A stretch of DNA of 36,113 nucleotides from Clostridia bacterium (GTDB taxonomy: Bacteria; Bacillota; Clostridia; Oscillospirales; CAG-272): the NCBI GenBank assembly GCA_017628075.1, contig JAGBZV010000232.1, forward strand, positions 1 to 36,113. Reading direction: 5' to 3'. The first letter of the stretch is position 1; each line of letters starts with the position of its first letter. A program made the position numbers and the translations under genes. Below the pieces are notes generated by a model. That model was not told where the DNA came from, did not search any database, and saw only the letters and a program-made list of their open reading frames with translations. Below, in pieces: positions 13,494 to 29,571 of the stretch.

Positions 13494-14546
13494 TCAAGTG
13501 CCGATGCACAGCGACAGCATCAGAAGATACAGCACCGATGCGGCAATCACGATCGCCAAAAGAAATCCCCCAATGGAGGCACAGTCGCGCAGGATATCCG
13601 CCTCCCGCGTCATCCCGAGCAGGGAGGCCAGCGCAGCAGATAAGGACAGTGCCGCCCGGAGCAGGATCACCTCACAGATCGGCGGAAGCATCTGCCACAG
13701 CAGCAGTGCCGCCCCGAGCACCCCTACCGTTCGCTTCACAAGAGAAAATCCCGCCGCAACGGTGCTCGCCGCTTCGCTGACCGCACCGCCGATGATAGGA
13801 ACCGTCCCCGACAGCGTAAAGCGCACCGCACGCATGGTCACGGAATCTGCGGCCCTGGAAAGCACCGTCTGATAGGATAAAACGGCACAAAGAATCGTCA
13901 TCATGCCCCCGATGAGAAACAAAAACTGCTTCCTGAGCAGCGCAGACAGCTCTGACAGCACCGATCCCCCTCCCGCACCCGCTGCCAGAGAAAGCCCCGT
14001 GCAGACACGCAGAAACGGAAAGCAGACACCCGTACACAGCACCTCCATAACCGAGAGAAACAGCGCCATTCCCACCGACGTCACGGATGCGGTAACTACC
14101 GCGCCGCGCATAGCAGAGAGCGTACACAGCGTAGTCAGTGCCGCCGTCATTGCCGTATGTATTTCCGCAAGATAGGATGCCGATGACGCAAACGCACCGG
14201 CAAGTGCCTCAAAGCCAATCAGCGCACATACAAGCGCACTGATCCCGCACAGAAAATCGTCGTGCACGCCGCGCGCCTCACCGCGGTACAGCCGCCATAT
14301 CGCGCAAAGAAGCAGGATCCCGCACAGTCTTGCGCACAGCGCTCCTGCGCCGACACCCTCGCCGCGCAGGGCATCCCATATCCGCGACAGTGCCGCCTCT
14401 CCGTCCAAAAGACGAAGCACCGCATCGGAGGATGGCATCTGTCCGTCAAGCCCAAACGCATCCGGCAGTGTATTGATAAAGGCACCCCCGCCCGCCTCCT
14501 CCCAAAAGGAGCGCAGCGTATCCCCGGCTCGTTCGCTTACAGACAT
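13494..14546 (-). CDS. spoIIIAE: Stage III sporulation protein AE
   Basis: Polytopic core of the SpoIIIA complex, 350 aa with about eight membrane segments. Family features include the VTASVTSVGMAL region, ALLRKQFLFLIGGMMT, and a well-conserved SGTVPIIGGAVSEAASTVAAG stretch followed by TVGVLGA. It is shorter than the Bacillus protein (about 399 aa) and starts with a soluble segment instead of a signal-peptide-like helix, so its N-terminus probably stays in the cytoplasm. It overlaps the spoIIIAD stop by 10 bp. It ends 55 bp before spoIIIAF, the widest gap in the operon. Confidence 0.92.
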   Translation of the reverse strand: MSVSERAGDTLRSFWEEAGGGAFINTLPDAFGLDGQMPSSDAVLRLLDGEAALSRIWDALRGEGVGAGALCARLCGILLLCAIWRLYRGEARGVHDDFLCGISALVCALIGFEALAGAFASSASYLAEIHTAMTAALTTLCTLSAMRGAVVTASVTSVGMALFLSVMEVLCTGVCFPFLRVCTGLSLAAGAGGGSVLSELSALLRKQFLFLIGGMMTILCAVLSYQTVLSRAADSVTMRAVRFTLSGTVPIIGGAVSEAASTVAAGFSLVKRTVGVLGAALLLWQMLPPICEVILLRAALSLSAALASLLGMTREADILRDCASIGGFLLAIVIAASVLYLLMLSLCIGT

Positions 14547-14953
14547 AACAGCGCCTCCGCCATCGACAGAATCTCCTCATACAGCGGCAGACCGATGCAG
14601 AGCAGAACGGCCCGTCCCGCAAGCTCAACCCGATCCGCAAGCCCGCCCTCACCAAGATCGCGGACCGTATCCGCGCTGAGCTGCACCGTCATCCCGACGG
14701 CCATCGCACGGAACAAAACCTGTGCGTGCTTGTCCGAAAGAAACGGCAAACACACCCGGCGCAGCTCTGACAGCACAGGAACCGCAAGCTCAATCGCCGC
14801 TGCAGCGAGCACCGCACACAGACAAGCACTCACCGCCCCCGCAAAGCCGCCGCGCGCACACCCACGCAAAACCGTCAGACAAAGTGCCGCAAGGACAGCA
14901 CAGCCGCACAGCCGCAAGACGTCCGTATAGGATTGCTGCAGAACCGTACTCAA
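14537..14953 (-). CDS. spoIIIAD: Stage III sporulation protein AD
   Basis: A small membrane protein of 138 aa with about four helices. Similarity to AC and to flagellar/type III export components such as FliQ is established for the family. The central HAQVLFRAMAVGMTVQLSADTVRDLGE matches the typical KYAKILLKALGIAYLTQFAADICRDAGE pattern in position and character. It overlaps spoIIIAC by 4 bp (ATGA) and spoIIIAE by 10 bp. It is unusually rich in Ala, Leu and Cys. Confidence 0.9.
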   Translation of the reverse strand: MSTVLQQSYTDVLRLCGCAVLAALCLTVLRGCARGGFAGAVSACLCAVLAAAAIELAVPVLSELRRVCLPFLSDKHAQVLFRAMAVGMTVQLSADTVRDLGEGGLADRVELAGRAVLLCIGLPLYEEILSMAEALLCL

Positions 14954-15144
14954 AGCCCAAACACCCCGCGCACGGAAGCAATGAGCTGCTCAAGCTGTCC
15001 GATCAGCATCAGAAGCACGAGAATCATTCCCGTCACACTGACCAAAAGCGCCTGCTCCTCCCTGCCCGACCGCGACAGCACCTGACAGATCACGGATACG
15101 AGAAACCCAATCCCGCTCACACGGAGAATCAATGTAATGTCCAT
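14950..15144 (-). CDS. spoIIIAC: Stage III sporulation protein AC
   Basis: A 64-aa protein with two membrane helices (DITLILRVSGIGFLVSVICQ and VSVTGMILVLLMLIGQL), the expected size and arrangement for SpoIIIAC. ATG 15144 was chosen because GGAGG lies 6 nt upstream and the product begins MDITLILR as in the family. A longer reading to 15228 would run into spoIIIAB. It overlaps spoIIIAD by 4 bp. Confidence 0.92.
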   Translation of the reverse strand: MDITLILRVSGIGFLVSVICQVLSRSGREEQALLVSVTGMILVLLMLIGQLEQLIASVRGVFGL

Positions 15145-15164
15145 GCTATGCCTCCCCAAATACC

Positions 15165-15674
15165 TTATAACAGAAGCAGAAGAACCACGCCGCCCGCTGA
15201 AGCGGACAGCGTTCTTGCAACACGGCACCGTGTGGGAAGCGCAGCCGCAGCCTCCGTATGAAGCTGCTCAAGCATCCCTCGCACGTACGCGCATCTGCCG
15301 CGCGTATGCTCGCGGTCCTCCGTTCCAAGGATCTCAAAAAACGAAGTCAGAAGTGCCGATTCTTCCCGTTCCAGACAAACCGATACCCCGCACGCAGCAT
15401 ACGCTTCCGCAGCAAGACCCGCCGCCCCGCCATTCGCATACCGCGCACGCACGTCGGGCAGAAACCCGCATCGCTCAAGCTCCTCCTCACCAAATGCAGA
15501 AAACAGCTGCGACAGCGGAAGTCCCATCTCCCCGATTCCAACCTCAAGCGCAGATACCAAACGGCAGAAGCCGCGCAGCATGCGCACACGCCGCTCCCAT
15601 TGCGCGCACAGCGCACCTCCGGTGTACAGCGCCGCCGCTCCGCACAGCACGGCGCCGACAATCCTGACCGTCAT
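15165..15674 (-). CDS. spoIIIAB: Stage III sporulation protein AB
   Basis: A 169-aa protein with an N-terminal membrane helix (MTVRIVGAVLCGAAALYTGG), a soluble helical domain with the family-like LVSALEVGIGEMGLPL and FFEILGTEDREH, and a C-terminal hydrophobic tail. Similarity to GspF-type secretion proteins is known for this family. ATG 15674 overlaps the spoIIIAA stop as ATGA, and AGGAGG is 4 nt upstream. A longer in-frame reading upstream lies inside spoIIIAA and is not used. Product acts with the other SpoIIIA proteins in the mother cell. Confidence 0.92.
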   Translation of the reverse strand: MTVRIVGAVLCGAAALYTGGALCAQWERRVRMLRGFCRLVSALEVGIGEMGLPLSQLFSAFGEEELERCGFLPDVRARYANGGAAGLAAEAYAACGVSVCLEREESALLTSFFEILGTEDREHTRGRCAYVRGMLEQLHTEAAAALPTRCRVARTLSASAGGVVLLLLL

Positions 15675-17984: not shown

Positions 17985-20129
17985 TCAGATCCGGCCGAAG
18001 CGGCCCTCGATCATACTCTTGGTCATAGTAAAGCACACCGGTCTTCCGTGCGGACAGTATCGGATCGCAGGATCGGACAGCACGCGGTCACAGATCCACT
18101 TCAGATGTGCCGCATCATACACTCTCCCTGCCTTGATTGCCGCCTTGCACGATGCCTGAAAGAGCGCCCTCTCCCAGCGTGCGTTTTGTGTCAGCGCGGC
18201 GCCTCCATGTCCGTCGCACAGATTCGAAACGGTTTCCGAGAATGCATCTGCAGCAGCCTGCACGGACAAAAACGACGGAATTGCCAAAATCCGCACGCCC
18301 GTGTCCTGCAGCAGAAAGTCAAAGCCGATGGCACGGATCTCCTCACCGAACTCCTCTGCGGCATTCATCTCCACCGCCGTCATTGAAACGTCCAAGGGAA
18401 CCAACAGCGCCTGCACCGTCGTTTCGCGGGATCTGACACCTGCCTTGAACTGCTCAAACAGGATCCGCTCGTGCGCAGCGTGCTTGTCCACAAGATACAT
18501 CGTATCGCCGCATTCGAGCACAACGTAGCACTGGAACAGCTCTCCGACCATACGGTACTGCGGCACCGTATGCACGGCTTCGGCCAAAGGCACATCCGCC
18601 TCGTCTGCACACACAGGTGTCTTATCCGGTACGGCGGCAGTATCCGATACGTGTGCCTTTGCCTCCGGCCGCACCGCATCATGCCCGCGTTCCGTCAAAG
18701 CCGCTTCCTTTTCCCGGTGCCGTGCTTCAGACGCTCCGTCGTCCGTCCGGACAGTCGTCCGTACGGAATTCTCCTCACGTGCGGGCGCGCCGAAGCCGCG
18801 CGGCACGGATATCGGCAGATGATCCAAGGCGGTTTCCTCTACCGCAGGCGATTCCTTGATCCCGCAGTACGCAGATGCCTTGGGCATCGAGCCTCCGTCC
18901 GTTTTTTCCTGTGCAAAGCGGCTCTCCCGTTTGGTCTGCTCTGCCGCGGTCGCCTGTGGCTCACCGCCGGAAGAAGACTGCTGCTCTCCCGCAGATACGT
19001 CCAGCGTTTGCAAAAGATCCTTTGCGGGTATCGGTGCATCGCCGCCGCGCCCCTCCACTACGGGAACGAAGGGGTGGAGCAGCGTGCGCTGTGCCTGCTT
19101 CCGCGCGGATTCCTCAACGAGCTTCAGCTCCGGTCGGGACAGGCTGCTCTCCAGCGCACCGCGCACGGCGTAATAAACCGATTCAAATACCACGCGCTCA
19201 TTGGAGAATTTGACCTCCAGCTTTGCCGGATGCACGTTGACGTCAACCGACGCCGCATGCATCTGCAGATACAGAACCGCACACGGAAACTTATCGGAGG
19301 GTATGTAGGTTGAAAATGCTTGCTCCAGCGCAGCGGATACCGTCTTGGAGCGGATATATCGGTTGTTGATAAAGAAAATCTGCAGATTGCGATTGCCCCG
19401 AACGTTCTCCGGCGATCCGATATAGCCTGACACGCTCACGCCGTCGAAGCCGCCGCGGATCTCAATGCTTTTCTTCGAGAAGTCACGGCCGAGCACCGCG
19501 TAAATAACCGAGCGGCGGCTTCCGTCGCCGGCAGTCGCATATTTGAGTTCCCCATCCATGATAAAGCGCAGGGTGATCTCCGGATGCGAAAGCGCGATTT
19601 TTTCCACGTATGCGGCAACGTTTGCCGCCTCCGTGCCGTCCTTTTTCAAAAATTTCAACCGTGCAGGCGTATTGAAAAAGAGATTTTCGACGATGACTGA
19701 GGTTCCCTGCGGGCATCCCGCATCCGCCAGATTTGTGACGCGCCCGCCGGAGGATTCCAACAGCGTGCCCGTGGCGTCCTCGCCCCGCCTCGTCATGATA
19801 CGCAGCTCCGAAACCGCAGCAATCGCTGCAAGCGCCTCCCCACGGAATCCAAGCGTCGCAATGGAGTTCAGGTCGTCGGCCTCCCGGATCTTGCTCGTCG
19901 CGTGCCGCTTGAGCGCAACGGGGACGTCCTCGCGTGCCATGCCGCATCCGTTATCGGAAACGCGGATGAACGAAACACCACCGCGCTTGATCTCTACCGT
20001 TACGGTATCGGCTCCGGAATCAATGGCGTTCTCTAAAAGCTCCTTGACGACAGAGGCCGGACGGTCAACGACCTCTCCTGCCGCAATCAGGTTTGCAACG
20101 TGAAAATCAAGAACATTGATAATGCCCAA
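17985..20129 (-). CDS. mutL: DNA mismatch repair protein MutL
   Basis: A GHKL ATPase that links MutS mismatch binding to strand nicking. The 714 aa contain the ATPase motifs ELLENAIDSGA, SDNGCGM and GFRGEAL, then a long polar linker (about 350-510), then a dimerisation/endonuclease domain with DKHAAHERILFE (the DQHAxxExxxxE motif with Gln changed to Lys), SCKAAIKAG and CPHGRP. It therefore looks like a nicking-competent MutL. The start is taken as TTG 20129, with GGAGG 7 nt upstream, giving the family start GIINVLD. The gene lies 42 bp after mutS, which carries an internal stop. Confidence 0.95.
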   Translation of the reverse strand: MGIINVLDFHVANLIAAGEVVDRPASVVKELLENAIDSGADTVTVEIKRGGVSFIRVSDNGCGMAREDVPVALKRHATSKIREADDLNSIATLGFRGEALAAIAAVSELRIMTRRGEDATGTLLESSGGRVTNLADAGCPQGTSVIVENLFFNTPARLKFLKKDGTEAANVAAYVEKIALSHPEITLRFIMDGELKYATAGDGSRRSVIYAVLGRDFSKKSIEIRGGFDGVSVSGYIGSPENVRGNRNLQIFFINNRYIRSKTVSAALEQAFSTYIPSDKFPCAVLYLQMHAASVDVNVHPAKLEVKFSNERVVFESVYYAVRGALESSLSRPELKLVEESARKQAQRTLLHPFVPVVEGRGGDAPIPAKDLLQTLDVSAGEQQSSSGGEPQATAAEQTKRESRFAQEKTDGGSMPKASAYCGIKESPAVEETALDHLPISVPRGFGAPAREENSVRTTVRTDDGASEARHREKEAALTERGHDAVRPEAKAHVSDTAAVPDKTPVCADEADVPLAEAVHTVPQYRMVGELFQCYVVLECGDTMYLVDKHAAHERILFEQFKAGVRSRETTVQALLVPLDVSMTAVEMNAAEEFGEEIRAIGFDFLLQDTGVRILAIPSFLSVQAAADAFSETVSNLCDGHGGAALTQNARWERALFQASCKAAIKAGRVYDAAHLKWICDRVLSDPAIRYCPHGRPVCFTMTKSMIEGRFGRI

Positions 20130-20171
20130 GGCCACACCTCCTTCCAAAAAGCACATTCATATAGCGTCTTA

Positions 20172-21803
20172 TTATTCCCCAGCCATATTTTTCAGATCAT
20201 TCAGTAAATTCATTGCCGCAAGCGGCGTCAGCGTATTGATATCTGTTTCCAAAAGCCGCCGTCTGATTTCCCCGGCAGCAACGTCACGCTCCTCTGCAGC
20301 AGAGAAATCCATGGCAAACTGCTCCTCGATAGGCGCAATCGTCCGTCTTCCGCGCACCGTCACAGCCTCGCCCTCATCCAGTGCGGCAAGAACCTCCTTG
20401 GCACGTCGGATGACCTCTGCAGGAATTCCGGCAAGCTTTGCGACCTCAATACCGTAGCTGTCGTCGGCAGGTCCGGGAATGATTTTACGCAGGAAAATGA
20501 TATCGTCGCCCTTTTTCTTTGCCGCAATGTTGAAATTGACGACTCCCTCAAGCGTGCCCTCAATCTCGGTCAGCTCGTGGTAGTGTGTGGCAAACAGCGT
20601 TTTCGCGCCGATCCGCTTTCCAAGCGTATATTCGAGTACCGCACGCGCAATGGACATTCCGTCGTAGGTGGACGTACCGCGCCCGATCTCATCGTAAATG
20701 ATCAGGGACCGGCTCGTTGCGTGTGCGAGAATGTATGCAACCTCCGTCATTTCCAGCATAAAGGTGGATTGACCGGATGCCAGATCGTCCGATGCGCCGA
20801 CACGCGTGAACACACGGTCCACAACGCCGATGCGCGCCGACCTTGCAGGCACGAAGGAGCCGATCTGTGCCATAATGCAGATCAGGGCAACCTGCCGCAT
20901 ATACGTTGATTTTCCTGCCATATTCGGTCCCGTGATGAGTGCAAGACGCCTTGCCCCCGTATCGAGCTGGGTATCATTGGGAACGAAATAGCTGTCACCT
21001 GCGAATTTCTCAACGACAGGGTGGCGGCCGTCACGGATGTCGATAACATCCCCCTCGTCCACCTCCGGGCAGACGTAGTGATTGCGGTTAGCCGCCTCCG
21101 CAAGAGAGATGTAGGTGTCGATATCGGCAAGCAAAGCCGCCGATGCCTGGATACGCGCGGCATGGACACACAGCGTTTCACGCACACGCTGGAACAGCTC
21201 GTATTCAAGCGCGTAGCTCTTATCCTTGGCACCGAGCACCGTTGCCTCCATGTCCTTGAGCTCCTGCGTGATATAACGCTCTCCACCCGTCAGCGTCTGC
21301 TTTCGGATGTAGCGATCCGGAACCATATCACGGTATGAGTTTGTGACCTCAATATAGTATCCGAACACCTTGTTATAGCCGATCTTGAGCTTAGGACTCC
21401 CCGTTGCCTCGCGCTCGTCCGCCTCGATCTTTTCCTTCCAGGCACTTCCGTCATGCATGATATCGCGCAGACGATCCACGTCCTCGGAATATCCGGGACG
21501 GATAAAGCCACCCTCACGCACGGAAAACGGCGGTGCATCGTCAATGGCGTCGTTGATGCAGCGGTACAGGTCGGTCAGCTCGTCAAGCTGCGCGCCAACC
21601 CTTGCAAGCTCCGGACAGTCGATCTCCGACAGCAATGCCTTGATGGGAGCGATCACCGCGATGGTATTGGCAATTGCACGCATATCGCGCGGACCGGCCG
21701 TATTGTAAATGACGCGCGTGATCAGCCGTTCCATATCCAGAACGTCACGCAGATACATACCGATCTCCTCGCGCTGCAGATAGTGCTCAAAAAAGGCACG
21801 CAC
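20172..21803 (-). CDS. mutS: MutS, C-terminal part downstream of an in-frame amber codon
   Basis: These 543 codons carry the lever, clamp and ATPase domains of MutS. Walker A is GPNMAGKSTYM, the Walker B/D-loop region is DEIGRGTSTYDG, and the signature segment SGQSTFMLEM and FATHYHEL are present. The reading frame is the same as that of the upstream part: TAG at 21810-21812, then two codons, then GTG 21803. Joined, they would make a normal MutS of about 873 residues. If translated alone, initiation could use GTG 21803 with AGGA 4 nt upstream, producing a protein without mismatch-reading domain I. Sequence quality of the ATPase part is intact, so any inactivation is recent. Confidence 0.88.
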   Translation of the reverse strand: MRAFFEHYLQREEIGMYLRDVLDMERLITRVIYNTAGPRDMRAIANTIAVIAPIKALLSEIDCPELARVGAQLDELTDLYRCINDAIDDAPPFSVREGGFIRPGYSEDVDRLRDIMHDGSAWKEKIEADEREATGSPKLKIGYNKVFGYYIEVTNSYRDMVPDRYIRKQTLTGGERYITQELKDMEATVLGAKDKSYALEYELFQRVRETLCVHAARIQASAALLADIDTYISLAEAANRNHYVCPEVDEGDVIDIRDGRHPVVEKFAGDSYFVPNDTQLDTGARRLALITGPNMAGKSTYMRQVALICIMAQIGSFVPARSARIGVVDRVFTRVGASDDLASGQSTFMLEMTEVAYILAHATSRSLIIYDEIGRGTSTYDGMSIARAVLEYTLGKRIGAKTLFATHYHELTEIEGTLEGVVNFNIAAKKKGDDIIFLRKIIPGPADDSYGIEVAKLAGIPAEVIRRAKEVLAALDEGEAVTVRGRRTIAPIEEQFAMDFSAAEERDVAAGEIRRRLLETDINTLTPLAAMNLLNDLKNMAGE

Positions 21804-21809
21804 CGTTTC

Positions 21810-21812
21810 CTA
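21810..21812 (-). other. In-frame amber codon interrupting mutS
   Basis: The minus-strand reading is CGC AGA TAG GAA ACG GTG, with no frame change on either side. One C-to-T change would turn a CAG Gln codon into TAG, and Gln fits the polar helix (RRQETV). No other complete gene in the window uses TAG as its stop. Confidence 0.9.
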
Positions 21813-22793
21813 TCTGCGCCAAATCCGGCGAACGTCGGTCAGCGGCATCTCGATCCATCGGCGCAAATTACGCGCACCCATGGCAGTACGGGTGTGGTCA
21901 AGCACCCAGAGCAGCGAGCCGCGCTTTTCCTTTTGGCGCATCGTTTCGCAAAGCTCCAGATTGCGCCGCGTGTTGACGTCCATTTCCACATACTGTCCAC
22001 CAAAATACGTATGCAGCGTGCGAATATAGGAAATATCCGTCTTCTGCGTTTCCTCCACGTAGTCAAGCAGTGCGCCGACGGCGGCCCGCATCACGCTGCC
22101 CTGTGCCGAATCGGGAATCTGCGCAGCGCCCTCGCCAAACTGGCGGCGCACGCGCGCCTCAGCGCTCACAGCGTCAAAGCGGTATGCCTGTCCGTCCTCA
22201 ACCATAGCGTGCAGACGGTCACAAAGATACGTTCCAAGCGCCTCATTCTGCGTGCGCGAAACGTTGAGCAATACCTCACGCGGCGTGTAGGCACCGAGCT
22301 CGTTGATGATATACGCATCTGCGCTCTCCCCCTCGGCAGCCGTCACGGAAACGTCCCCCGTCGAAATATCAACGAAGGCAGCGGCGGCGGCCCCATCGGT
22401 GAGCATCACCGCGCAAAGATAGTTATTCGTGCTTTCATCAAGCATGGAATTTTCAATCAGCGTGCCGGGCGTAATGATACGGACGACGTCGCGTTTGACG
22501 ATTCCCTTTGTCGTTGCAGGGTCCTCAAGCTGCTCGCATATCGCAATCTTGAAGCCCCGTGCGATCAGACGGCTGATATACGTTTCAGAGGAATGATACG
22601 GAATCCCGCACATCGGGGCGCGCTCCGCCTCGCCGCAATCGCGGCCTGTCAGCGTCAGCTCAAGCTCCTTGGATACGGTTATGGCGTCCTCGTGGAACAT
22701 TTCATAGAAATCACCCAGGCGGAAGAACAGCACGTAATCCTTGTATTTTTCCTTGATTGCAAGATATTGCTGCATAAACGGTGTGACAGCCAT
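21810..22793 (-). CDS. mutS: MutS, N-terminal part upstream of an in-frame amber codon
   Basis: The first 327 residues of MutS: domain I with the mismatch-reading FFRLGDFYEMF (Phe-x-Glu), the connector domain, and the beginning of the core ending at WIEMPLTDVRR. The ATG at 22793 has AGGAG 10 nt upstream and lies 33 bp after ricA. Translation should stop at TAG 21810-21812, giving a fragment without the ATPase. It would bind neither ATP nor MutL and so would not repair mismatches. The amber is a single-base event in an otherwise normal gene (see findings). Confidence 0.88.
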   Translation of the reverse strand: MAVTPFMQQYLAIKEKYKDYVLFFRLGDFYEMFHEDAITVSKELELTLTGRDCGEAERAPMCGIPYHSSETYISRLIARGFKIAICEQLEDPATTKGIVKRDVVRIITPGTLIENSMLDESTNNYLCAVMLTDGAAAAAFVDISTGDVSVTAAEGESADAYIINELGAYTPREVLLNVSRTQNEALGTYLCDRLHAMVEDGQAYRFDAVSAEARVRRQFGEGAAQIPDSAQGSVMRAAVGALLDYVEETQKTDISYIRTLHTYFGGQYVEMDVNTRRNLELCETMRQKEKRGSLLWVLDHTRTAMGARNLRRWIEMPLTDVRRIWRR

Positions 22794-22826
22794 CGTTTTA
22801 TATCTCCTGTCTTAAAATATCCTGGA

Positions 22827-23228
22827 TCAATGGCAGCCCCGGCAGGTCGAGCAGTCGTGCGTACAGCCGGATGCTTCATCCGAAGGACGCTCGCCCGTAA
22901 TCTGGTATGTGATCTCCTCGTTGACACAGTTCATGAATCTGTTGACCTCCTCCTGGGCCTCGTTGTATTCCACGAGAACGGGAAGTGCGGAGATCTCGGC
23001 ATAGAGGCTGTTGATGCGCGCCTCAATGGCGTGGATGACCTCCATATCCTTCTCGTCCTTCTTGTATTCCTCCGTCAGCGCGATCGTCTGCACGTTGTAT
23101 TCCGTCATCTTGTACTGAAGATGCGAATCGTTTTTATAGGCCTCCGTTGCAGCCTCCATACGCTTGATGCGGGCATCCTCCTTGATTGCACGGCCAAGCT
23201 GTGCGGCCAATTCCATAATAGCGTCCAT
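22827..23228 (-). CDS. ricA: YlbF/YmcA-family regulator, RicA-like, with C-terminal Cys cluster
   Basis: A 133-aa, mostly helical protein of the YlbF/YmcA (Com_YlbF) family. In Bacillus RicA, RicF and RicT form a complex that binds iron-sulfur clusters and supports RNase Y mRNA processing, biofilm formation and sporulation. The tail after residue 119 has four cysteines (CTHDCSTCRGC), suitable for cluster binding. Assignment to RicA rather than RicF rests on synteny: in Bacillus ymcA lies between miaB and mutS, as here. ATG 23228 has GGAG 9 nt upstream; an upstream in-frame ATG at 23252 overlaps the Shine-Dalgarno. Confidence 0.82.
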   Translation of the reverse strand: MDAIMELAAQLGRAIKEDARIKRMEAATEAYKNDSHLQYKMTEYNVQTIALTEEYKKDEKDMEVIHAIEARINSLYAEISALPVLVEYNEAQEEVNRFMNCVNEEITYQITGERPSDEASGCTHDCSTCRGCH

Positions 23229-23274
23229 TGTTGTATTCTCCTTTGATATCAAAAAATTTATAGTGGTTGCTCCA

Positions 23275-24717
23275 TTACAGGACAGCCTCGCCCCAAAGAT
23301 TGTAGGTCTCCGCTGCCGTGATCCTGACGGGAATCACTCTGCCCGTCAGCGATTGATCCGGATCTGCCGGGAAATGCACCAGCTTTCCGCCGTCCGTCCG
23401 TCCTGCGTACATCGTGCGGTCACCCCGGCTCAGGCCCTCAACAAGAATCATATACTCTTTGCCGACGCACGCCAGGTTCTTTTCCAGCATGATCTCGTTC
23501 TGTACCGCAAGCAGCCGCGCCATACGGTCCTGCTTGACCTTTTCAGGAAGCTGCTCCATGCGGGCAGCGGGTGTCCCCGTGCGCGGCGAATATATAAACG
23601 TGAAAAGCTGGTCGCAGCGCGCAATGCGCACCGCCTCCAGGGTTTTCTCAAAATCCTCCTCCGACTCGCCCGGGAATCCCACAATGATGTCAGAGGTCAC
23701 GGTAATATCCGGCATCCTCTGCCGCATATACGCAAGGATATTCAGATACGACTCCGCCGTGTAGCGTCGGTTCATTGCCGCAAGCACCCGATTTGAGCCT
23801 GACTGCATGGGCAGATGGAAATGCTTTGCCGCCTTTTCGTTTTCTGCCATCACGTCAATCAGCCGATGCGAGGCATCCTTTGGATGCGAGGTCATAAAAT
23901 GCACGCGGAAATCCCCCTCCAGCGCACAGATTGCCGCAAGCAGATCGGGAAACTCCACACCCTCGTCAAGGTCGTGTCCCCACGAATTGACGTTCTGTCC
24001 AAGCAAAGTGATCTCGCGGTATCCGTTTGCTATCAGCCCCCGGATCTCCTCAAGAATGGCGTGCAGCCGGCGAGAGCGTTCTCTGCCGCGCACGTAGGGT
24101 ACGATACAGTAGGAGCAAAAGTTGTTGCACCCGTACATGATGGATACCCATGCCTTTCTGGCATCTGCCCGGCGCACGGGAATTCCCTCCGCGATACAGC
24201 CGGGATCGCCGGCATCCAGGAAAAACTGCCGCTTGCGTCCGGCAATATATGCGTACAGGATCTGCGGCAGACGATAGAGCATCGACGTGCCGAACAGAAT
24301 GCTGACGTAGGGATAGCTGTGCTTGATGCGTTCCTTACGCGTTTCCTGAGAAACCATACATCCGCAGATGCCGATAATCAGCTCCGGATTGCGCTCCTTG
24401 AGGTGCTTGAACTGTCCGGTAATAGACAGCGCCCGCTCCTCCGCATGCTCACGCACGGCACAAGTATTGATCAGAATAAGATCGGCATCCGCCGCGGTAT
24501 CGACAGGCACGTATCCCATCGCCTCTGCCATTCCGGCAAGCCGTTCGCTGTCCGCTTCATTTTGCTGACAGCCAAAGGTCTGGATATAATAACGCCGTTC
24601 CCTGCCATTCTCTGCCAAAAACGCCTCGTTCCATCCGGCGATTTTCGCAGTATACGCACGCTGCTCTGCAAGCTCCTCCTCGGATACCGTGCGCGTGGTT
24701 CTGCTGATATCTGTCAT
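23275..24717 (-). CDS. miaB: tRNA-2-methylthio-N6-dimethylallyladenosine synthase
   Basis: A radical-SAM methylthiotransferase that converts i6A37 to ms2i6A37 in tRNA. The 480 aa have the UPF0004 domain with three cluster-binding Cys (QTFGCQQNEAD, INTCAVRE, GICGCM), the radical-SAM motif CNNFCSYC near 205, and a TRAM domain after about 405. All cluster ligands are present. ATG 24717 directly follows the stop of the upstream transglutaminase-like gene (TAAATG), with GGAG 9 nt upstream. The N-terminal 40 residues are a charged extension. It heads the translation-and-repair gene run ending with tgt, which also modifies the anticodon loop. Confidence 0.96.
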   Translation of the reverse strand: MTDISRTTRTVSEEELAEQRAYTAKIAGWNEAFLAENGRERRYYIQTFGCQQNEADSERLAGMAEAMGYVPVDTAADADLILINTCAVREHAEERALSITGQFKHLKERNPELIIGICGCMVSQETRKERIKHSYPYVSILFGTSMLYRLPQILYAYIAGRKRQFFLDAGDPGCIAEGIPVRRADARKAWVSIMYGCNNFCSYCIVPYVRGRERSRRLHAILEEIRGLIANGYREITLLGQNVNSWGHDLDEGVEFPDLLAAICALEGDFRVHFMTSHPKDASHRLIDVMAENEKAAKHFHLPMQSGSNRVLAAMNRRYTAESYLNILAYMRQRMPDITVTSDIIVGFPGESEEDFEKTLEAVRIARCDQLFTFIYSPRTGTPAARMEQLPEKVKQDRMARLLAVQNEIMLEKNLACVGKEYMILVEGLSRGDRTMYAGRTDGGKLVHFPADPDQSLTGRVIPVRITAAETYNLWGEAVL

Positions 24718-25911
24718 TTATTCCGTCTCCTCGGATCTGTTCTCATAAAATAGCTGCACCGTCATGCCGCCGCCCGCCACAGAAGCGTGGTAGATGCGGT
24801 TCACCGTGCGCAGCTTCGGCAGATCGGATTGTGCTTCGTCTGCGTTCACGGCCGCAATGGCTTCGTTCAGGTATTCCTCAAGTGCATAGTCGGGCAGACC
24901 GACCTCGCGCGGAATACAAAGCTCCGCCCAATATGTCCCCTCCCGTCTTGCTTCCGTCAAAATACGGACAAGCAGCGCGGGGATCTCCTCCTCGGTATCG
25001 GCAAAGCAGCCCTCTCGCTCGTAAAAGTGGTTCGTGTCGCCGCCGCTGAGCTGAAGATAGCCATCCGGCGTATGATCCGCGCCCATCTCCTCAAGCGACA
25101 AAAAATAATAACCGTGAAACGGAAGCTCGATCGCCGCAGCGTCGTTCCACATCACATCCGTATAACCGGGCACGTCCTCGGGCATCAGCGCATTCCAGGC
25201 GTGCCGGAACTCTGCCGTACCGTCCGTTGCCATACCCGTCACGGTCATGCAGCTGATCCCTGCCTCCCGGCAAAGGTATGTATACGCAGCCGCATAGCCT
25301 GTGCTGTCCGAAAGTCCGAGCACCAATGCGTCGTACGCCGTACTGCCGACGGCAGATACAGTGTCCCCATCCTGTGCCGAATAGGTCACCCGTGACACAA
25401 GCGCATCGTGCAAGCCGCGTGCACAGTCCCATCCGCCCTCGGTCCGGACACCGGCAAGCAGTACTCTCGCAGCCTCACGCATTGCCTTGCGACGCTGTGC
25501 GTCGTCCTCCATATAAGTCAGCCTTACGCAGGCGGAATACGCCCCTGCCTCCATCCTGGATTCCTGCCACAGCACGTCGCAGTATTCCGGTCTGTCCGCA
25601 GAAAGCGCCTGTACTGCACGGATGAATTCCTCCTCCGTCGGCACGAAGGCAACGCGCCGCGAGGTCCGACGGCGTCCGTCCGCAGCCCACTCAATGGCCT
25701 CGTATACCTGCTGCTCACGCGCATTCAGAGAGTTATAGCACCATAGCCCCTCCCTCACGTCTGCAGTGCCTGCACCGCCTGCTTCCGCTGCGGTGTTGGA
25801 AAAAATATGCTGTGCCAGCGCATGTGCGCAAAAATACATACCAACGCAGATAAGCAGACACAGCGGCAGCACGCTCCAGCGCTTGATGCGCGCCTTTGTG
25901 CTTCGCTTCAC
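24718..25911 (-). CDS. Membrane-anchored transglutaminase-like protein with Ser at the catalytic Cys position
   Basis: A 397-aa protein with one N-terminal membrane helix (about 13-33) and an extracytoplasmic domain. Residues 190-260 look like a transglutaminase core: SDSTGYAAAYTYLCREAGI, then FRHAWNAL with His237, then TDVMWND with Asp252. The usual GVCxGYA cysteine is replaced by Ser203, so classic transglutaminase or protease activity is doubtful. A Ser nucleophile or a binding role is possible. GTG 25911 is chosen (GGGAGG 8 nt upstream) over GTG 25920. The gene runs directly into miaB and has its own promoter. No specific function can be assigned. Confidence 0.72.
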   Translation of the reverse strand: MKRSTKARIKRWSVLPLCLLICVGMYFCAHALAQHIFSNTAAEAGGAGTADVREGLWCYNSLNAREQQVYEAIEWAADGRRRTSRRVAFVPTEEEFIRAVQALSADRPEYCDVLWQESRMEAGAYSACVRLTYMEDDAQRRKAMREAARVLLAGVRTEGGWDCARGLHDALVSRVTYSAQDGDTVSAVGSTAYDALVLGLSDSTGYAAAYTYLCREAGISCMTVTGMATDGTAEFRHAWNALMPEDVPGYTDVMWNDAAAIELPFHGYYFLSLEEMGADHTPDGYLQLSGGDTNHFYEREGCFADTEEEIPALLVRILTEARREGTYWAELCIPREVGLPDYALEEYLNEAIAAVNADEAQSDLPKLRTVNRIYHASVAGGGMTVQLFYENRSEETE

Positions 25912-26135: not shown

Positions 26136-26214
26136 ATTGTATATGTACAGTTATTTTGGCACAGATATTTTATTTGCGGCACTCCGCAATTCCGATTCAG
26201 AAAGGATATACAAC

Positions 26215-27897
26215 ATGGATTACCAAGCACTCGCAGAGCTTCTTTTTCCAAACGTCACCGCAACGGTCGAGGAAATCGAGGCACGCTACCCCGCACGTAA
26301 CCTGCCCGAAGGCGCAAAGGTTACGCGGTTTGCGCCAAGCCCCACAGGATTCGTCCACTTCGGCGGTATGTATCAGGCCGTGGTCGACGAAAGACTCGCA
26401 CACCAATCCGGAGGTGTATTCTTTTTGCGTATCGAGGACACCGACGGTCAGCGTGAGATCAAGGGCGCAGTCGAAGCACTGCTGCGCACCCTCTCCGACT
26501 ACGGTGTAGCATACGACGAGGGCCCCCGCATCGACGAAAACGGAAACCTCCACGAGGTCGGCGCATACGGACCGTACAAGCAGTCCCAGCGTGCAGAGCT
26601 GTATCACGTTTTCGCAAAGAAGCTCGTTGCCGAGGGTAAGGCATACCCGTGCTTCACAACGGCAGAGGAGCTTGAGGAGATCCAGGAAACCGATAAAAAG
26701 GCGGAGATCAAAAACACCGACTGGCACGTTGCAGCAGAGCAGAAGCGCGCCGCAATGCTGGCAGGAAGAGTCTTCACCATGGAGGAGGTCCGCGCACACC
26801 TTGCGGCAGGCGACCCCTTTGTGATCCGGATCCTTGCAAACGGCGATCCCGACAAGAAGACGAAATTCACAGATCAGGTCAAGGGCAGCCTTGAGGTACC
26901 GGAAAACGACGAGGACTTCGTTCTGCTCAAATCCGACGGCATCCCCACCTATCACTTTGCGCACGCAGTTGACGACCACCTCATGAAGACCACGCACGTC
27001 ATTCGCGGCGAGGACTGGCTTCCCTCCCTGCCCAAGCACATCATGCTGTTCAACTACCTCGGCTTTAAGATGCCCAAATATCTGCATACCGCACAGATTC
27101 TGAAAACCGATGAAAACGGCGGCAAAAAGAAGCTCTCCAAGCGTGATATGGGTGCCAAGATGGACGACTACCGCGAGATGGGTTACGTCACAGAGGCGGT
27201 TTGGGAATACCTGCTCACCCTGCTGAATTCCAACTTTGAGGAATGGCACGCGCAGAATCCGGACAAGTCCTGCCTTGACTTCCCGTTCAATATCAAGAAG
27301 ATGGCAACGTCTGGCTGCCTCTTCGATTTCACAAAGCTCAACGACGTTTCCAAGAACGTCCTCTCCAAAATGACCGCCGACGAGATCTACACAAAGTTCC
27401 TTGATTGGGCACAGCAGTTTGATCCTGCGTTTGCCGCGTGCCTTGCAGCGGATCCCGACAAGGCAAAGGCAATCTTCGCCATCGGACGCGGCGGAAAAAA
27501 GCCGAGAAAGGATTTGACCACCTGGAAGGACGTCAAGCCGTACATGAGCTTCTTCTACACCCCGTATTTCAGCGTTGACCGCACGCCCCTTGCACGCTTT
27601 CCCGAGGAGGACGTTACTGCCGTCTGCACGCGCTTCCTTGAATCGTGGGATCCGGCAGACGAGATGGGCGCTTGGTTTGATAAGATCAAGGGAATCGCCG
27701 ATGCACTCGGATACGCCTCCGATATGAAGGCGTATAAGGCAGACCCTACGGCATTCAAGGGCAGCGTTGCCGACGTTTCGATGTTTCTGCGCGTCGCTGT
27801 AACCGGACGGGAAAACGCCCCCGACCTCTATACCGTCATGCAGATTCTCGGAGACAATGAAACACGTGCACGTATCCAGGCACTTATGAACGTATAA
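26215..27897 (+). CDS. gltX: Glutamate--tRNA ligase
   Basis: A class I aminoacyl-tRNA synthetase that charges tRNA-Glu. The 560 aa are longer than typical bacterial GluRS (about 470-490), with extra sequence in the middle and C-terminal parts. The HIGH-type motif lies in RFAPSPTGFVHFGG, and the KMSKS-type loop is KKKLSKRD. FLRIEDTDGQREIKGA is characteristic of GluRS rather than GlnRS. ATG 26215 has AAAGGA 8 nt upstream; an upstream in-frame ATG at 26137 lies at the transcription start and is rejected. glnS follows 12 bp later, so both are in one operon. Confidence 0.93.
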   Translation: MDYQALAELLFPNVTATVEEIEARYPARNLPEGAKVTRFAPSPTGFVHFGGMYQAVVDERLAHQSGGVFFLRIEDTDGQREIKGAVEALLRTLSDYGVAYDEGPRIDENGNLHEVGAYGPYKQSQRAELYHVFAKKLVAEGKAYPCFTTAEELEEIQETDKKAEIKNTDWHVAAEQKRAAMLAGRVFTMEEVRAHLAAGDPFVIRILANGDPDKKTKFTDQVKGSLEVPENDEDFVLLKSDGIPTYHFAHAVDDHLMKTTHVIRGEDWLPSLPKHIMLFNYLGFKMPKYLHTAQILKTDENGGKKKLSKRDMGAKMDDYREMGYVTEAVWEYLLTLLNSNFEEWHAQNPDKSCLDFPFNIKKMATSGCLFDFTKLNDVSKNVLSKMTADEIYTKFLDWAQQFDPAFAACLAADPDKAKAIFAIGRGGKKPRKDLTTWKDVKPYMSFFYTPYFSVDRTPLARFPEEDVTAVCTRFLESWDPADEMGAWFDKIKGIADALGYASDMKAYKADPTAFKGSVADVSMFLRVAVTGRENAPDLYTVMQILGDNETRARIQALMNV

Positions 27898-27909
27898 AAG
27901 GAGACCGAC

Positions 27910-29571
27910 ATGGAAGAGATCAAAGAAATAAAAGCCTCAAATTTTATCTGGGACGCAATTGAAGAGGATCTGGCTGTGGGCCGCTATCCCTCCGTTCATA
28001 CACGCTTCCCGCCGGAGCCAAACGGCTACCTGCACATTGGCCACTGCAAGGCGCTCGTCATTGACTTCGGTACCGCAAAGCGCTTTGGCGGCATCTGCAA
28101 CCTCCGTATGGATGATACCAACCCCGCAAAGGAAGACACCGAATACGTCGACGCCATCAAGGAAGACATCCATTGGCTCGGCTTTGACTGGGACGACCGC
28201 TTCTTCTATGGCTCCGATTACTTTGAGGCCGATTACGAATATGCGGTTGAGCTGATCAAAAAAGGACTTGCATACGTCTGTGAGCTGACAGCAGAGCAGT
28301 TCCGCGATCCCAAGTATTGCGGTGACGTCAACACCCCCGCCGTTTCTCCGTGGAGAGATCGTCCCATCGAGGAATCTCTGGATCTGTTCGCCCGCATGAG
28401 AGCCGGCGAATTCCCGGAGGGTAAATATACCCTGCGTGCAAGGATCGATCTTGCATCCGGCAATTTCTGCATGAGAGACCCCGTTCTGTACCGTATCCGC
28501 TACATCGAGCACCACAGACAGGGTACGAAATGGTGTATCTATCCCATGTACGACTTTGCACACCCCATCCAGGATGCCATTGAGGGCATTTCTCACTCCC
28601 TGTGCTCTCTGGAATATGAAATTCACAGACCGCTTTACGATTGGGTTATTGAAAACTGCTCCGTACCGTCGAAGCCCCGTCAGATCGAATTCGCCCGCCT
28701 GAATATGACGAACACCGTTATGTCCAAGCGCTTTTTGCGCCATCTCGTGGAATCCGGCCTGGTCGACGGATGGGACGATCCCCGTATGCCCACGCTGTGC
28801 GGTCTTCGCCGCCGCGGCTATACCCCCGGATCCATTCTCGATTTCTGCTCCCGCATCGGCGTATCCAAGGCAAACTCCCTTGTGGAGATCGGCCTTTTAG
28901 AGGCGTGCGTACGTGATGAGCTCAACGAAACGGCACCCCGCCGCATCGCAGTCCAAAATCCCATCAAGATTATCGTTGACAACTATCCGGAGGATAAGGT
29001 CGAGTACTTTGCAGTACCCAACCATCCTCAGCATCCGGAAATGGGCACAAGAGACGTTCCCTTCAGCCGCGAGCTGTATATCGACGCATCCGACTTCGCG
29101 CTCGTGCCTCCCCCCAAGTTCCACCGTCTTAAGCCCGATTCTGAGGTGCGTCTGATGGGCGCATATATCATGAAATGCGGTGAGATCGTTCTCAACGACG
29201 ACGGCACGATCAAGGAGATCCACACGACCGTTGACCTTGAAACCGGAAACGGAAATCCCGCTGACGGCAGAAAGATCAAGGGTACGATCCACTGGCTCTC
29301 TGCAAACCACGCAGAGGAAGCAACCGTTATCCTCTACAACCGCCTCTTTACCGAGGAAAACATGAACGAGATCGACTCCGCAGACTACGATCAGTATCTC
29401 AATCCCTCCTCTGCCGTCCGCGTTGAACACGTCAAGATCGAACGCGCGCTGGCAAACGCTGCTCCCGGCGAGCAATTCCAGTTCGTCCGCGACGGATACT
29501 ACTGCAAGGACACCAAGTTTGACAACACCTTCAACCGCGTTGTTACCCTCAAGGATTCCTTTAAGGCCTGA
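27910..29571 (+). CDS. glnS: Glutamine--tRNA ligase
   Basis: Charges tRNA-Gln directly. The 553 aa are full length. Motifs: HIGH as FPPEPNGYLHIGH, RMDDTNPAKED, DFAHPIQDAIEGISHSLCSLEYEIHRPLYDW (a GlnRS hallmark, in pieces), and MSKRFL for KMSKS. An anticodon-binding beta-barrel domain covers about 340-550. AAGGAG lies 8 nt before the ATG. Many Firmicutes lack GlnRS and use GatCAB with a non-discriminating GluRS, so a true GlnRS here probably has a history of transfer. It is followed by a strong terminator. Confidence 0.95.
   Translation: MEEIKEIKASNFIWDAIEEDLAVGRYPSVHTRFPPEPNGYLHIGHCKALVIDFGTAKRFGGICNLRMDDTNPAKEDTEYVDAIKEDIHWLGFDWDDRFFYGSDYFEADYEYAVELIKKGLAYVCELTAEQFRDPKYCGDVNTPAVSPWRDRPIEESLDLFARMRAGEFPEGKYTLRARIDLASGNFCMRDPVLYRIRYIEHHRQGTKWCIYPMYDFAHPIQDAIEGISHSLCSLEYEIHRPLYDWVIENCSVPSKPRQIEFARLNMTNTVMSKRFLRHLVESGLVDGWDDPRMPTLCGLRRRGYTPGSILDFCSRIGVSKANSLVEIGLLEACVRDELNETAPRRIAVQNPIKIIVDNYPEDKVEYFAVPNHPQHPEMGTRDVPFSRELYIDASDFALVPPPKFHRLKPDSEVRLMGAYIMKCGEIVLNDDGTIKEIHTTVDLETGNGNPADGRKIKGTIHWLSANHAEEATVILYNRLFTEENMNEIDSADYDQYLNPSSAVRVEHVKIERALANAAPGEQFQFVRDGYYCKDTKFDNTFNRVVTLKDSFKA

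Follow-up and report, generated by a model that had tools for sequence, protein, structure and literature searches.

The mutS gene of an uncultured Clostridia bacterium is interrupted by a single amber codon, which raises the question of whether the stop marks a real loss of mismatch repair, a gene decoded or divided in an unusual way, or an error in the deposited sequence. The window, i.e., the whole stretch of DNA analysed (36,113 nucleotides), is the entire contig C167 of a fragmentary draft genome that comprises 1,762,976 bases in 242 contigs with a completeness of 80.8%. The 80 named relatives used for comparison are metagenome-assembled Clostridia and their kin, many of them recovered from the guts of goat, sheep, deer, buffalo and other herbivores. 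The gene belongs to a minus-strand run composed of miaB, a small conserved ORF, mutS and mutL, the features of which are as follows:

23275..24717, minus strand, miaB, intact, upstream of mutS
22827..23252, minus strand, small conserved ORF, intact, upstream of mutS, with no NCBIfam match at 1e-30
20172..22793, minus strand, mutS (MutS1), a single frame with one internal TAG
21813..22793, minus strand, N-terminal part of mutS, 327 aa, with MutS_I, MutS_II and the first part of MutS_III
21810..21812, minus strand, internal amber codon TAG, codon 328, within domain III, at a column where most relatives, like E. coli MutS, have Gln
20172..21803, minus strand, C-terminal part of mutS read from GTG 21803, 543 aa, with the rest of MutS_III, MutS_IV and the MutS_V ATPase
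17985..20156, minus strand, mutL, intact, directly downstream of mutS

Elsewhere in the window, gltX and glnS are adjacent on the plus strand (26212-29571). A 597-aa open frame on the plus strand opposite mutS (21453-23246) is probably a shadow of mutS codon usage.

Read from 22793 to 20172, mutS spans 2622 nucleotides (873 codons plus the terminal stop). An uninterrupted single reading frame is expected of MutS1, but here the frame contains exactly one internal stop, the TAG at 21810-21812, with open flanks in the same frame on both sides; an earlier note on this DNA was accurate in describing one amber stop, at codon 328 of about 873, with no change of frame across it. The same note had placed the stop between the connector and the lever domains. 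This location does not hold, since the Pfam MutS_III profile (194 positions) is covered from 1 to 54 by the N part and taken up again at 60 by the C part, and the break thus falls within domain III. The gene otherwise resembles bacterial MutS1 (NF003810 and TIGR01070) in its length, its position upstream of mutL, the presence of domains I–V in order and a glutamine column shared with E. coli MutS (from the alignment of the MutS of the genus relative G007 to E. coli MutS chains), and differs from it in the amber codon. The two equivalog models match both halves in consecutive stretches; the C part scores above both cut-offs and the N part alone falls below them (346.5 of 480 and 318.3 of 641.7 bits). 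The translation includes GPNMAGKST and GDFYEMF, which we take to be the Walker A region of the ATPase and the N-terminal mismatch-reading motif, respectively. Motifs at both ends are thus present, and mutL downstream is intact, as had been proposed. Apart from a MutS2 with an Smr domain, no other MutS-family match was found in the genome, and mutS is the sole MutS1 gene found there.

Relatives provided 109 loci matching MutS1 (103 distinct sequences, that of the window excluded), and the column of codon 328 is covered in 102 distinct sequences, with glutamine in 95, leucine in six and glutamate in one. A Gln codon occupies the column in all seven genus relatives aligned, and none of the 97 full-length mutS sequences from relatives carries a stop codon. 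The sister comparison thus supports the glutamine origin that had been suggested for the TAG, and, among the relatives examined, the stop is particular to the genome of the window. When the C part of mutS was used as a query against 59 genomes, an open MutS1 frame of 785–966 aa was recovered in 54, so that the broken frame of the window stands out by more than chance. The other five are the genome of the window, two in which the gene is apparently cut at contig ends (G002 and G055) and two with weak MutS-like matches only (G015 and G018). The latter two genomes, 94% and 91% complete, respectively, gave nothing for MutS1 at 1e-100, which may reflect either a lost mutS or gaps in the assembly.

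An old pseudogene would be expected to show its age, and the sequence was examined for signs of decay. Across the 97 full-length relatives, 199 columns are conserved at 97% or more; the MutS of the window departs at one of them (I466S), and the relatives themselves show no departure in 61 cases, one in 17 and more than one in 19. Its amino-acid distance to G007 is 0.161, and that between G007 and another genus member, G008, is 0.172. The ratio of private nucleotide changes at codon positions 1 and 2 to those at position 3 is 1.27 for mutS, 1.41 for mutL, 3.0 for miaB and between 0.54 and 1.67 for nine other window genes (the genes at 264 and 1124, which are without orthologues, were left out), and the mutS value thus falls inside the range of 11 other window genes (0.54–3.0). 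For the C part of mutS taken separately, this ratio is 1.19 in the window, 0.31 in G001, 0.33 in G008, 1.36 in G003, 1.43 in G005 and 1.75 in G007. At 464 columns invariant in other members of the genus the genome of the window has 15 private residues; the sisters have 2 (G001), 2 (G007), 3 (G008), 5 (G005), 12 (G003), 25 (G004) and 80 (G006), the values for G001 and G007 being those of near sisters whose own private changes are hidden. We read the 15 private residues and the ratio of the C part as lineage distance, though this is not a clean zero. An old pseudogene is accordingly rejected, in view of no clear relaxed selection or decay and no further lesions in mutS. Both halves of the gene still look constrained as judged from these comparisons, and, because there is no clear decay, the stop is on balance either very recent or not real.

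Comparison of window genes with their counterparts in relatives brought up no second broken gene. At 14537-15255, what first appeared to be a break proved to be a set of overlapping small genes from what resembles the spoIIIA cluster. A scan for in-frame stops was extended to 229 kb (the window plus 20 further stretches) and returned 437 stops with more than 60 open codons on each side, 28 of which, that of mutS among them, have a coding-like frame on both sides. Nineteen of the other 27 lie between proteins that match different families (in two cases, at 24718 of the window and at 5425 of contig C212, by a weak match on one side), three lie between genes that are also separate in relatives, and five lack a family match on at least one side, including one TAG (position 10596 of contig C205). 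No second split gene is therefore shown in the 229 kb scanned, with five candidates that lack a family match on a side, and mutS is the only conserved gene there shown to have an in-frame TAG.

A control with essential genes was used to estimate how often draft genomes of this family contain internal stops; these surveys cover in-frame stops. With the MutS of G007 as query, 369 of 395 family genomes gave a match, and stops were counted in the best 150 of these 369. The mutS gene was flagged in three of them, namely the genome of the window, G368 and G332; re-alignment confirmed the stop of G368 (locus L169), an internal TAG that falls at query residue 12, but showed no internal stop in G332, so that confirmed internal stops occur in 2 of the 150 best-listed family genomes, that of the window counted. 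AlaRS, searched likewise, matched in 357 of the 395 genomes, and two among the best 150 of these 357, G138 (L173) and G349 (L174), have an internal stop in alaS, with one match each and a single stop each, internal by re-alignment. In a sample of the order (157 genomes), mutS is represented by 148 matches from 147 genomes, with stops flagged in the genome of the window and in G485 (1 of 147 matches once the former is excluded); the stop of G485 (L175) is located 20 bases from a contig end. Stops were found neither in alaS among the best 150 matches listed for the order sample nor in gltX among 135 matches (151 family genomes). Leaving out the mutS of the window, the listed matches give 2 stops in 296 for mutS and 2 in 435 for the essential genes (alaS, 150 and 150; gltX, 135), a pooled count in which some genomes recur across samples and which includes the alaS and gltX of the window's own genome. 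On these numbers, there is no clear excess of stops in mutS over essential genes.

The gene alaS is essential, whereas mutS is dispensable. Stops in alaS can hence hardly be real nulls, and those of G138 and G349 are probably sequence errors; in mutS, by contrast, a real null is possible. The stray alaS stops resemble that of mutS in being one isolated stop in an open, conserved frame, and, as it is difficult to account for them other than by sequence errors, error becomes the first choice for mutS as well. We thus infer that the TAG probably stems from one wrong base in the consensus of a fragmentary metagenome-assembled genome. A sequencing or assembly error was one of several readings on the earlier list, and it comes out here as the likeliest of them, supported by the alaS control. 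According to this explanation, a normal, functionally constrained mutS would carry one isolated miscalled codon, the organism would make an ordinary full-length MutS and the stop would be without biological function. The fragmentation and incompleteness of the assembly, the alaS stops in comparable drafts, the mutS count without clear excess over essential genes and the single departure at 199 conserved columns all argue for it. On the other side, the 229 kb scanned show no second split gene, so there is no visible abundance of such errors in this genome; the control depends on two alaS cases, the other two essential-gene samples having none; and a genuine nonsense mutation of very recent date would leave the same picture. 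A literature search found no paper joining metagenome-assembled genomes, pseudogenes, sequencing errors and in-frame stops.

Such a mutation is the main competitor of a consensus error and is possible, though we hold it to be the less probable of the two. In this case a real and very recent nonsense mutation would have inactivated mutS, leaving a 327-aa product devoid of the clamp and ATPase domains and making the strain, or a majority of the sampled population, mismatch-repair deficient (a mutator). It is favoured in that no second split gene was shown in the 229 kb and that no MutS1 gene besides mutS was found, and mutators with mismatch-repair defects are well known, so that even a real null would be of a known kind. 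One report gives 5% mutators among environmental isolates of S. maltophilia (PMC8875331), and another a mutator frequency of up to 30% in some natural, host-associated populations (PMC10292718). A marine Vibrio in which mutS is reported to carry a mobile element (PMC5296598) resembles the present case in that a single event would inactivate mutS and leave mutL intact; the difference is that here the lesion would be a nonsense codon, in the draft genome of an uncultured bacterium. Against a real null stands the rate of stops in mutS, which does not clearly exceed the rate in essential genes. The lack of clear relaxed selection also gives it no support but is neutral on timing, as a recent null would leave none.

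Readthrough of the TAG by means of a suppressor tRNA or a reassigned amber codon, with full-length MutS being made, is very improbable. Of 22 tRNA matches in the genome, ARAGORN typed 21, the remaining one being truncated at a contig end, and no CUA anticodon occurs among the 21 typed in this 80.8% complete genome. A pattern of a CUA anticodon arm plus T-loop had three matches, namely two tRNA-Arg(TCT) genes and one place that ARAGORN leaves uncalled (19 of the 21 typed genes conform to the generalised pattern). PylS was not detected above the cut-off in the 80.8% of the genome represented; in 13 of 14 control genomes, too, the PylS model gave a hit of some strength, above the cut-off in one. 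RF1 is present and above its cut-off. These results go against the suppressor tRNA and readthrough that had been offered as readings of the stop, but as the genome is incomplete and a tRNA gene could be absent from the assembly, a missing suppressor tRNA is weak evidence. Readthrough would agree with the constraint on both halves of mutS, with the presence of glnS in the window and with the rarity of TAG as a terminator, which ends none of 34 window genes; of 128 orthologues from seven genus genomes (loci L157-L165, L167 and L168), three end with it, each of them in G003. TAG further ends 7 of 119 long segments with a stop and 3 of 177 picked segments, counts taken from census versions unfit for split-gene counting (one noisy, one missing mutS). 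Readthrough is opposed by yqfD, a conserved gene on C205 that terminates with TAG, by mutS being the only in-frame TAG shown in the 229 kb and by the lack of a stop at the column in all relatives examined.

A mutS working in two pieces, with the N fragment and a C fragment started at GTG 21803 reassembling, or with the C fragment having a role of its own, is just as hard to credit. The restart suggested earlier is correct as to its elements, the GTG being located six bases past the stop with an AGGA just upstream that overlaps the stop, and domains IV and V are kept in the C part. However, all seven aligned genus relatives have GTC or GTA at this valine codon, so the restart is not conserved; moreover, the break lies within domain III and the full-length relatives (97 of 97) have no stop. 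Least credible of all is the idea that a lineage nearly emptied of TAG terminators tolerates or weakly suppresses amber codons, with reduced full-length MutS acting as a leaky, tunable mutator.

Readthrough, recoding and a working split MutS are thus unlikely, and the locus gives the impression of an isolated base-level error or of a gene lost very recently, and not of a new biological system. Considering that single internal stops occur in the essential alaS of drafts of this family (2 among the best 150), a lone mutS stop in such a draft genome is no ground for calling the organism a mutator unless reads support it. If reads confirm the TAG, the gene would add another mutS null to those known, this time from an uncultured bacterium of the gut; otherwise the stop would have little importance.
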